DNA of 57,064 nt from Candidatus Eisenbacteria bacterium (GTDB taxonomy: Bacteria; Eisenbacteria; RBG-16-71-46; SZUA-252). The stretch is from contig VBOW01000031.1 of assembly GCA_005893275.1 (NCBI GenBank), positions 1 through 57,064 of the forward strand. The letters are read 5' to 3'. Below, one piece after another: positions 1,189 to 4,344 of the stretch (within the stretch, counting starts at the first letter, position 1; every line of letters starts with the position of its first letter). A program made the position numbers and the translations under genes. The notes beneath the pieces were generated by a model. That model did no database searches. It was not told the DNA's origin and saw only the letters and a list, made by a program, of their open reading frames with translations.

Positions 1189-1923
1189 ATGGCACTTATC
1201 GAATATGTCGCGCTCGTCATCCTGGGAGGGCTCGTGCTTGCCTGGGAGGCCTGGGCGCCCGGTCAAGCGGGTGCCGAGCCCCTCACGCTGCTCTTCTGGG
1301 TCCTGGCGAATATGCTGGGCGAGCTTCTCTGGCTTCCGGCGCCCAAGGAGCGGGGCTACCTGAGCATGGCGACCGCCGCGAACTTCGCGACGCTCCTCAT
1401 CCTTCCCGTTTCGCTCGCGGTCACGGTGACGGTGCTGGCCGGCGCGCTCGTGGACCTCCTGTTCCGGCATCGGCGCTGGTATCAGGTTCTCTTCAACGCA
1501 TCCGTCTGCTGCATCGCGGTATTCTCGGCGTCCCACGTGTTCACCTCGGTGGGCCAGGGAAGGGATGGGCTCGAGAACCTGCTCTCACCGCTCAACGCCG
1601 GCGCGCTCGTGCTCTCGGCGCTGACGTACTTCCTGGTGAACACATGGCTCGTGACGGGGGTCGTGGCGCTCGATCAGAAGTTGAAGCCGTGCCCCGTGTG
1701 GGCCACGACGTTCGCCTCGCCCCAGGAAGTCTTGGGCTCCTTCGTCCTCTTCACCTTGGGGCTCCTCTTCGCGGCGCTCTTCCTCGCGTGGGGCTATCTG
1801 AGCGCCTTTCCGGCCACGATCGCCACGTGCTTCGTGCGGGGTGCATACAATCGCTACGTGGAGGCGCGGGGGGCGCCTCAAGCTATTGCATCTCGAGCAG
1901 ACGCTGCCTCAGGTCCGGGCTGA
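1189..1923 (+). CDS. Multi-pass membrane protein, unknown function
   Basis: A 244-residue protein with about six hydrophobic segments (for example VALVILGGLVLAW, FATLLILPVSLAVTVTV and LGSFVLFTLGLLFAALFLA). The layout, with a conserved-looking YLSMATAANFATLLILP segment, resembles the membrane-sensor region found before HD or GGDEF domains in some signalling proteins. No cytoplasmic output domain follows here. The C-terminal tail is short and runs 41 bases into the 3' end of the opposing dapF-like gene, so the two genes converge and overlap. It begins 7 bases after the lipoprotein gene and is likely in the same transcript. No enzymatic motif was recognised. Confidence 0.6.
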   Translation: MALIEYVALVILGGLVLAWEAWAPGQAGAEPLTLLFWVLANMLGELLWLPAPKERGYLSMATAANFATLLILPVSLAVTVTVLAGALVDLLFRHRRWYQVLFNASVCCIAVFSASHVFTSVGQGRDGLENLLSPLNAGALVLSALTYFLVNTWLVTGVVALDQKLKPCPVWATTFASPQEVLGSFVLFTLGLLFAALFLAWGYLSAFPATIATCFVRGAYNRYVEARGAPQAIASRADAASGPG

Positions 1924-2713
1924 GCGTCCCGACATAGACCTCTTCGGCCGGGCCGGTCATGATGAGACTCAAGTCGGACCCGACCTCGACTTCCAGCTGC
2001 CCCCCTTCCATCAGCACGGTTACCTTTCCATCGACAAGGCCCCGGTCGAAACACGCCGTCGCGACGGCGCACGCGCTCGTGCCGGAGGCGAGCGTGTGCC
2101 CCGCGCCCCGCTCCCAGACGAGCGCCCGCGCGCTGGCGCGGGATTCGGCGGCGGCGATCTGCACGTTGATGCGCTGGGGGAATTGCGCATGTCGCTCCAC
2201 CAGAGGACCGATCGCGAATAGGCGCTCGCGCGTCAGGGGCTCGCCGAAAATGACGCAATGCGGGTTCCCCACCGAAACCACCGTCACGTCGAGACGGCGG
2301 CGCTCGATCGCGAGCGAGCGAATCGCGCGATCGATGCTCGCCCGCCCCATCTCGAGCCGCACCGCGTAGACCCTCCCGGCCCGCCGGTAGACCTCGGTCG
2401 TGACCGGCCCCGCCGCGGTTACGATCACAAAGGTGCTCTCGATCGTGTAGCCGTGGTCGCTCAGGAATTTGGCCGCGATTCGAAGCCCGTTCCCGCTCCG
2501 TTCCGCTTCCGAGCCGTCGGGGTTCCAGATCCGGGCGAAGAACCCATCGACGCGTTTCGTGACCTCCAGCACCCCGTCGGAGCCCAAGCCCAGGTTCCGA
2601 TGGCAGAGGAGGCGTACCCGCTCGGGCGTGAGCGGGATTCCGAAGCGCTCGCCGTCCACCACGATGTAGTCGTTCCCCAGGCCGTGTCCCTTGACGAAGT
2701 CAGCTCCGAGCAT
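1883..2713 (-). CDS. dapF: DapF-family epimerase homologue with both catalytic cysteines replaced by serine
   Basis: A 276-residue protein, the normal length for diaminopimelate epimerase, which interconverts LL- and meso-diaminopimelate using two cysteines as acid and base. The family frame is well kept: GNDYIVVD near residue 13, DGS at 66-68, GNPHCV at 149-154, RINVQ at 181-185 and WERGAGHT at 200-207. In the pattern DGSxxxxCGNG the cysteine is serine (ERSGNG, Ser73, codon AGC). In the second site, normally ACGTGACA, it is also serine (ASGTSACA, Ser210, codon TCC). I checked both codons on the minus strand. The gene overlaps the upstream CMD-like gene by 14 bases, so translation is coupled. 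It is either an inactive or altered isomerase, or a variant whose chemistry differs; a role in lysine or peptidoglycan synthesis should not be assumed. Confidence 0.85.
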   Translation of the reverse strand: MLGADFVKGHGLGNDYIVVDGERFGIPLTPERVRLLCHRNLGLGSDGVLEVTKRVDGFFARIWNPDGSEAERSGNGLRIAAKFLSDHGYTIESTFVIVTAAGPVTTEVYRRAGRVYAVRLEMGRASIDRAIRSLAIERRRLDVTVVSVGNPHCVIFGEPLTRERLFAIGPLVERHAQFPQRINVQIAAAESRASARALVWERGAGHTLASGTSACAVATACFDRGLVDGKVTVLMEGGQLEVEVGSDLSLIMTGPAEEVYVGTLSPDLRQRLLEMQ

Positions 2714-3347
2714 CGTCGGATTCCAGTCCGGCGGCCGAGAGCGCCTCCCGGACCACCGCGTCCCCCGCCATGGGAGCGCAAAGCTCGATCGCCTCGCGCA
2801 CGCCCGCGCGGGTGCCGCCCACGTGGATCGCGCCGATCGCGTGAGAGCGGAGCTGGCGCCACATGCGCGAGGTGGCGAGGATCGCCACGATGCAGTACTC
2901 GCGCGTGACGGTGTCGAGCCCGGGGCGGGAAAGCGTCTTTCCGTAGCCCTCGAGAATCATCCAGGAAGCGAGGTCCGGGGAGAGATCCCGCATGGTTTCC
3001 ATCAGCTTGACGTAGTTCTTGCCGTAGACCCGCCGGCAGAGCGACTCCCCGGCGTGATTCCACTCGGATGGATTGGCCGGCTTCTCCGGACCCGGGCGCG
3101 CGCCGTGGCGCGCGAGCACGGGCTTCGCGGCGAAGAAGGCCTCGATGGCATGCGGGAATCCGAGGAAAAGATAGGATTGGAGGAGTGTTTCGTAGACCGC
3201 CTCGGGGGCGGCTCCTTCCCGGAGCGCCTCCGCCGCGTGATCGGCGGTCCCGGAGGCGTCCCCCGCCGCGATCGCCGCTGAAAGAGAAACGAGCCGCGCT
3301 TCGGGGGGACGTAGCGCTCGCGCCCGCTTGCCCGGGTCAGCGGCCAA
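2700..3347 (-). CDS. Carboxymuconolactone decarboxylase-like (CMD/AhpD superfamily) protein
   Basis: A 215-residue, all-helical protein. The C-terminal half fits the CMD superfamily: LDTVTREYCIVAILA, then LRSHAIGAIHVGGTRAGVREAIEL, where family members have an LRSHxxGAxxxGxTxxEIxE pattern. The CxxC pair of peroxidase-type AhpD is absent, so an alkylhydroperoxidase role is unlikely. The first half (residues 1-90) has a similar but weaker pattern (AAPEAVYETLLQSYLFLGFP), which suggests a double-CMD layout. It is the middle gene of three: it overlaps the esterase by 11 bases and the dapF-like gene by 14 bases. The substrate is unknown. Confidence 0.7.
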   Translation of the reverse strand: MAADPGKRARALRPPEARLVSLSAAIAAGDASGTADHAAEALREGAAPEAVYETLLQSYLFLGFPHAIEAFFAAKPVLARHGARPGPEKPANPSEWNHAGESLCRRVYGKNYVKLMETMRDLSPDLASWMILEGYGKTLSRPGLDTVTREYCIVAILATSRMWRQLRSHAIGAIHVGGTRAGVREAIELCAPMAGDAVVREALSAAGLESDDARS

Positions 3348-4344
3348 GGGCGTGGGACAGCTTGGGCAGGGTGACGTCCATGCGGTATGGGATATTCATG
3401 TGGCCGTCCTCGAACTCCTCGTACTCATGGGGGACCCCCAGCGCTTCAAGCCGCTTCACGAAACACCGCGCGCCCAACTCGAGAAAGTATTCGTCCTCGC
3501 GGCCGCAGTCGAGAAAGAGAAGCCGGAGTTTCTTCAGGCTCTCGGCGTGCCGGTCGACCAAATAGAGAGGATCCCATTCGAGCCAGCGCTTCCACACGTC
3601 CTCGTGGATCGCGCCGGTCTCGAGATCGAAGGGGAGGTCGCAGTAGGCCGGCGGGACGGCCACGTTCGGCGAGTAGGCGGCGCTCATCGCGACGATATTG
3701 AGCGCCGCGATGTCTTCATGGCGCTTCCGAGGCGATCTGCGGAGGTTGCTCAGCCAGGCGGCAAGGCCGCCCCCCTTGCGGATGGTGCGCAGCGCGGGAG
3801 CGAAATCGCGCTTGTAGCAGTGTTCGAAATAGATGTCGCCGCTGTGGCAGACGACCGCGCCGAAGACATCCGGGTGGCGCATGCCGAGCCTGAGCGCGCC
3901 GTAGCCGCCGCTGGACTTGCCGATCACGCCGCGATGCTCCGGGGCGGAGAGTGTCCGGTACCGGGAATCGACGAACGGCACCAGCTCTTGGATGACGTGG
4001 TTCTCGTACTCGCCAAGCGCGGGAGAATTGACGTACTGGCTCCCGCCCAGGTGGGTGAAACAATCCGGGAGCGCCAGAATCATGGGGTTCGTCCGGCCGT
4101 CCGCGATGAGGGAGTCCATGCGGTCTCCGATACCGGGCATCCAGGGGCTGTCATTCAGGAGCATCCGCCCGCGTCCGGTAAAACCGCTCAAACACCACGC
4201 GACGGGGTAGCGCTCGCCCCCGTGTTCGTACCCGGGCGGGAGGTATAGGTAAAGATCGCGGGCGTCGGGATCACCCGGAAGATTCCCTCGCAGGACCGAG
4301 CTTTCCACCCGCTCGCTTCGAATCCTGCCGCGCGGGATTTCCAT
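3337..4344 (-). CDS. Alpha/beta-hydrolase esterase (esterase D / enterochelin-esterase type)
   Basis: A 335-residue putative serine esterase. Near the N-terminus it reads LYLYLPPGYE, typical of the esterase D family. The nucleophile lies in GKSSGGYGAL (a GxSxG elbow) around residue 145, the acid is probably the Asp of DCGREDEY, and the histidine is in DGHMN near the end. No signal peptide is evident, so it should be cytoplasmic. It is the first gene of a three-gene operon with a CMD-like and a DapF-like protein. The start codon lies only 6 bases below a -10 element and has no Shine-Dalgarno sequence, so its mRNA may be leaderless. Its real substrate cannot be read from the sequence; a lactone or ester linked to the next two gene products is one possibility. 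Confidence 0.8.
   Translation of the reverse strand: MEIPRGRIRSERVESSVLRGNLPGDPDARDLYLYLPPGYEHGGERYPVAWCLSGFTGRGRMLLNDSPWMPGIGDRMDSLIADGRTNPMILALPDCFTHLGGSQYVNSPALGEYENHVIQELVPFVDSRYRTLSAPEHRGVIGKSSGGYGALRLGMRHPDVFGAVVCHSGDIYFEHCYKRDFAPALRTIRKGGGLAAWLSNLRRSPRKRHEDIAALNIVAMSAAYSPNVAVPPAYCDLPFDLETGAIHEDVWKRWLEWDPLYLVDRHAESLKKLRLLFLDCGREDEYFLELGARCFVKRLEALGVPHEYEEFEDGHMNIPYRMDVTLPKLSHALGR

Follow-up and report, generated by a model that had tools for sequence, protein, structure and literature searches.

Diaminopimelate (DAP) epimerase, DapF, is an antibacterial target and the textbook example of a two-base epimerase with a thiol-thiolate pair; it removes an α-proton with a pKa of about 29, and mutants in which one of its cysteines is changed to serine are regarded as almost inactive. 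A DapF-family gene in a 57,064-nucleotide stretch of Candidatus Eisenbacteria DNA (the whole stretch analysed, hereafter the window) encodes serine at both catalytic positions, which raises the question of whether its product is a working epimerase, a protein of changed function or the remnant of a lost enzyme. In the open-access literature, with subscription journals and preprints outside the scope of the search, no description of a DapF with a Ser/Ser or Ser/Cys pair was found.

The window gene and its product

The gene occupies positions 1883..2713 of the minus strand as a full-length, ATG-initiated open reading frame of 276 amino acids, and its product scores 212 bits against the DapF model TIGR00652, above the cut-off of 114.65, and 165.7 bits against Pfam DAP_epimerase. 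Ser73, encoded by AGC (2495..2497, minus strand) within the motif DGSEAERSGNG, aligns with the first catalytic cysteine of Haemophilus influenzae DapF (Cys73), while Ser210, encoded by TCC (2084..2086, minus strand) within LASGTSACA, aligns with the second (Cys217). Codons and profile matches together confirm the sequence-only reading, which had recognised a DapF homologue with both catalytic cysteines changed to serine. When the segment NPDGSEAERSGNGLR is compared with the PROSITE active-site signature N-x-[DN]-[GS]-[SENGFT]-x(4)-C-[GI]-N-[GA]-x-R (as quoted in PMC8225329), the obligatory cysteine is the sole mismatch, and the signature fails. Because Ser73/Ser210 likewise departs from the definition of DapF by two catalytic cysteines, the protein is called here a variant that would work like DapF.

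The AlphaFold model of the protein (pLDDT 95, pTM 0.90) adopts the two-domain DapF fold, with helices 74-86 and 211-223 starting directly after Ser73 and Ser210, respectively. Its top match in the PDB is a DAP epimerase (9mro_A; TM 0.87, 38% identity), and the C73S and C217S mutants of H. influenzae DapF (PDB 2q9h and 2q9j) are also among the top structural matches; these carry a single engineered serine at the same position, which hinders catalysis, without the further substitutions described below.

Upstream on the same strand, the gene is overlapped by a carboxymuconolactone-decarboxylase (CMD) family gene (2700..3347, minus strand; PF02627, 65.2 bits), which is in turn overlapped by a putative esterase gene (3337..4344, minus strand; PF00756, 80.4 bits). 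These matches agree with the neighbours and the absence of adjacent lysine genes noted from the sequence, and the latter counts against a working epimerase. A CMD homologue also adjoins dapF at two other loci (L006 and L007), and the pairing is limited to close relatives, so that the CMD and esterase neighbours are uninformative as a clue to function.

Origin of the Ser/Ser clade and its coupled substitutions

A homologue search covering both catalytic sites and the gene context, as the sequence-only reading had proposed, showed that the Ser/Ser pair recurs in 69 distinct sequences across phyla, which were collected together with 76 Cys/Cys and 17 Ser/Cys sequences; the first-site residue is serine in 69/69 of the Ser/Ser clade and cysteine in 76/76 canonical proteins. 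Carriers belong to Eisenbacteria, Dadabacteria, Nitrospirota, Gemmatimonadota, Chloroflexota, Spirochaetota and others. A scan limited to a single genome for each species gave 25 Ser/Ser loci among the best 80, distributed among Eisenbacteria, Dadabacteria, Methylomirabilota, Nitrospira, Gemmatimonadota, Chloroflexi, Spirochaetaceae, Saprospiraceae, Hydrogenedens and Anaeromicropila. Within the source genome's own family, all seven members with a match are Ser/Ser; a 96%-complete member (G007) has no DapF match, which counts against a working epimerase. Relatives from other families of the same class have cysteine at the first site in all sequences read, and at the second site wherever it could be aligned.

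In a tree computed with the six diagnostic columns (72, 73, 79, 185, 210 and 213) excluded, the 30 Ser/Ser rows form a single group with support of 100/100 whose neighbours are Cys/Cys DapFs. Another group, of 11 Ser/Cys rows (support 100/100), is separate and distant from it, so that serine displaced the first cysteine in at least two independent events. A single origin of an ancient, monophyletic Ser/Ser clade from a Cys/Cys DapF is thus strongly supported. The dN/dS values of the window gene against family members (0.05-0.16) indicate strong purifying selection, and both the TCN and the AGY class of serine codon occur at each of positions 73 and 210 across the homologues.

Beyond the two serines, four positions differ nearly or completely between the clade and Cys/Cys DapF. 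Position 72, adjoining Ser73, is Lys or Arg clade-wide (Arg72 in the window protein, codon CGG, 2498..2500, minus strand) and mostly Met, Phe or Gln, also Ile, in canonical DapFs; position 79 is Ile in the clade and Cys in 99% of Cys/Cys DapFs; position 185 is an invariant Gln (codon CAG, 2159..2161, minus strand) where canonical DapFs mostly have Glu or Asp; and position 213, in the first turn of the helix that follows Ser210, is Ser in 100% of the clade (codon AGC, 2075..2077, minus strand) and Gly in 100% of canonical DapFs. These coupled changes speak for a re-tuned active site. A general avoidance of cysteine is rejected, Cys153 being invariant and Cys37 and Cys215 kept.

The residues that contact DAP are, in H. 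influenzae numbering, Asn11, Asn64, Asn75, Asn157, Asn190, Glu208, Arg209, Gly218 and Ser/Thr219 (PMC8225329). N14, N64, N75, N150, N183, E201 and R202, together with G74 and G211, are 100% conserved in the clade, and position 212 is Ser or Thr; the window protein accordingly holds contacts for both ends of the substrate, and the early observation that the substrate-contact segments are kept extends to the whole clade. The only DAP-holding residue that is not kept, Gln44 of H. influenzae, also lacks general conservation among canonical DapFs. Retention of these contacts speaks for an unchanged substrate.

Sole copies and the need for meso-DAP

The source genome is 99.65% complete and contains one DapF, the Ser/Ser gene; the suggested check for a normal Cys/Cys DapF elsewhere in it was run and found no second DapF. 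Of 24 further Ser/Ser genomes tested, from other phyla, 23 likewise have the Ser/Ser gene as their lone DapF, and a lone copy is retained even in genomes of about 1 Mb. The exception is Anaeromicropila populeti of the Lachnospiraceae (G054; L050, L113, L137, L138), which has one Cys/Cys DapF and two near-identical Ser/Ser copies on different contigs, for which a second role is possible. Among Ser/Ser Nitrospiraceae checked with TIGR00652, 18/19 have a lone Ser/Ser DapF, and the remaining genome has two Ser/Ser copies duplicated in tandem (L256; G116:C22:829928-832124). Since almost every carrier genome has no DapF but the Ser/Ser one, this gene very probably still performs the role of DapF.

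The genomic setting is one in which LL-DAP is made, meso-DAP is used and no other epimerase is found. LysA, which acts on meso-DAP, is matched in 30/31 Ser/Ser genomes, and 23 of the 28 genomes in which MurE was read, the source genome among them, show its meso-DAP motif DNPR; the other five belong to Spirochaetota (four) and Chloroflexi (one). At two such loci, L158 (Spirochaetales) and L166 (Chloroflexi), MurE reads DEDPR or EDPR in place of DNPR, which suggests a stem-peptide residue other than meso-DAP; these genomes may need meso-DAP for lysine alone. DapL-like aminotransferases are found in Ser/Ser genomes, that of the source genome scoring 489 bits, under the strict cut-off of 593, and its dapB match is likewise under its strict cut-off; both low scores count against a working epimerase. 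No DAP dehydrogenase above the cut-off was detected in 31 Ser/Ser genomes or in 19 Ser/Ser Nitrospiraceae. Some Nitrospira (L169, L170, L260-L262) encode a weak DAP-dehydrogenase-like protein (109-120 bits; cut-off 180.6), a further point against, and the one at L169 is also sub-threshold against Pfam DAPDH_C (24.7 bits; cut-off 30). A bypass through DAP dehydrogenase is therefore rejected.

A cultured case is provided by Nitrospira sp. KM1, a pure-culture isolate maintained on inorganic nitrite medium (PMC7522533), so that its own synthesis of meso-DAP is obligatory. The genome that we take to be that of KM1 (G095) is assembled as one 4,509,223-bp contig in which the sole DapF is Ser/Ser and MurE carries DNPR; no DAP-dehydrogenase match was found in it, the L169-type match included.

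Gene order adds a further line of evidence. In Spirochaetaceae, the Ser/Ser gene lies in one run of alr, dapF, an M20 deacylase gene and lysA. In Nitrospiraceae, 60 genomes from the GTDB family of a Nitrospira MAG (G048) were surveyed: 38 are Ser/Ser (one only a fragment), 20 are of the Ser/Cys type (first site readable in 18) and two have no match, while none of the 60 contains both types or a Cys/Cys DapF. The Ser/Cys variant has serine at the first site and cysteine at the second (EAEFSGNGA and LACGTGSIAS), and about 20 Nitrospiraceae genomes (L229-L246, L269, L273; e.g. G066, G079 and G081) have no other DapF. It lies within the lysine operon, between lysA and dapA in G066 and in the order argH-lysA-dapF-dapA-dapB at L273; a natural variant of this kind in this position is counted in favour of a working Ser/Ser epimerase. 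A Ser/Ser genome of the family (L274) reads argG-argH-lysA-dapA-dapB; here lysA and dapA are only 24 bp apart, and the Ser/Ser dapF lies on a separate contig from lysA-dapA-dapB. In this family, the Ser/Ser dapF took over from the dapF sited between lysA and dapA. Elsewhere, in Dadabacteria and relatives (L034, L041, L044), an amidohydrolase gene follows the Ser/Ser dapF and a ccsB-like gene is near; the amidohydrolase at L041 resembles aminofutalosine deaminase under the family cut-off, and was dropped as a functional clue, being sub-cut-off and not common to other carriers.

Serine in place of the thiol pair

From these observations, we infer that the window gene is likely to encode a working DAP epimerase with Ser73 and Ser210 as its acid-base pair in place of Cys73/Cys217, and that the change probably lies in the catalytic pair while the reaction is kept. 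The putative enzyme would convert LL-DAP to meso-DAP, feeding peptidoglycan synthesis through MurE and lysine synthesis through LysA, with the two serines predicted to sit where two helices begin, facing the substrate α-carbon from opposite sides. After the clade's single emergence from a Cys/Cys DapF, fixation of K/R72, Ser213, Gln185 and Ile79 may have served to position the hydroxyls or to lower their pKa.

Known systems provide both support and caution. Canonical DapF (TIGR00652; H. influenzae, E. coli, Anabaena) is alike in fold, length, DAP contacts and metabolic setting, but has the Cys/Cys pair where the window clade has Ser/Ser with K/R72, I79, Q185 and S213. A thiol-thiolate mechanism is described for DapF and its relatives (PMC12039745), and laboratory Cys-to-Ser mutants are crippled, with less than about 0.1% of activity left in PddB and Mycobacterium tuberculosis DapF (PMC8225329) and greatly reduced activity in HisR (PMC11602996), which counts against activity of a Ser/Ser epimerase. 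Natural catalytic serines are described, in the available text of PMC4113996, for a Ser/Cys 4-hydroxyproline 2-epimerase (B9JQV3) and a Ser/Thr trans-3-hydroxyproline dehydratase (B9K4G4) of the proline racemase superfamily. These have a related two-domain fold and use serine as acid/base, but unlike the window clade they carry one serine only and act on other substrates; that text describes no Ser/Ser epimerase. It also describes the catalytic Ser90 of B9K4G4 as held by Asn93 at i+3; Ser210/Ser213 match this polar i+3 pattern in sequence, whereas Ser73/Gly76 do not, and Ser213 may hold Ser210 in the same manner. EcL-DER, a Cys/Thr aspartate/glutamate racemase described as one-directional (PMC8142540), similarly has a hydroxyl residue in place of one catalytic cysteine, but belongs to another fold family and has a single residue changed.

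The serines might instead only position the substrate of an active DAP epimerase, proton transfer being carried out by another residue or an ordered water. Serine is a poor general acid or base, and the fixed residues Lys/Arg72, Gln185 and Ser213 lie close to the pair, whether along the sequence or in the fold; yet the clade has no new invariant Asp, Glu, His or Cys, residue 72 is the poor base Arg in the window family, and hydroxyproline epimerases do use serine in this way (PMC4113996), so that we regard this arrangement as unlikely. The sequence-only reading had favoured a changed function; on that view, the protein would bind or act on a different amino-acid-like ligand, and meso-DAP would come from elsewhere. 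The loss of both cysteines with several coupled changes fixed would fit it, as would the CMD and esterase neighbours in the window and the amidohydrolase and ccsB neighbours in Dadabacteria, and DapF relatives with different substrates do exist, namely PddB (2,4-diaminobutyrate racemase) and the histidine racemases HisR and CntK, which have a DapF-like fold. These relatives keep both cysteines, and PddB has lost the majority of the residues in contact with the distal end of DAP (PMC8225329); the Ser/Ser clade shows the reverse, its distal contact set being wholly invariant. With DapF present as a lone copy in nearly all carriers, DAP dehydrogenase never above the cut-off, the lysA operon of Spirochaetaceae and the displacement in Nitrospiraceae, a changed function is not the best reading and appears distinctly improbable.

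That the gene is not decaying, as the same reading had held, is borne out by purifying selection, an ancient monophyletic clade and invariant binding residues. Loss of both catalytic residues is what an inactive remnant would show, but the low dN/dS, motifs that are invariant across phyla and single copies in genomes of about 1 Mb make a remnant or pseudogene highly improbable. Sequencing or assembly error has a negligible likelihood, given recurrence of the two serines in 69 distinct sequences from independent assemblies, a complete isolate genome and varied codons. Decay, pseudogenisation and error are accordingly rejected on dN/dS and recurrence.

If the assignment as a working Ser/Ser epimerase is true, the acid-base pair of an essential enzyme is replaceable, and Ser/Ser bacteria lack the thiols targeted by thiol-directed DapF inhibitors. 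The clades in which a Ser/Ser or Ser/Cys protein is the lone copy make α-proton removal without a thiolate directly testable, and they bear on which neighbouring residues enable it and on thiol oxidation or another pressure as the driver. Use of the cysteine signature for annotation would leave an essential gene mislabelled in Nitrospira and in several further phyla.
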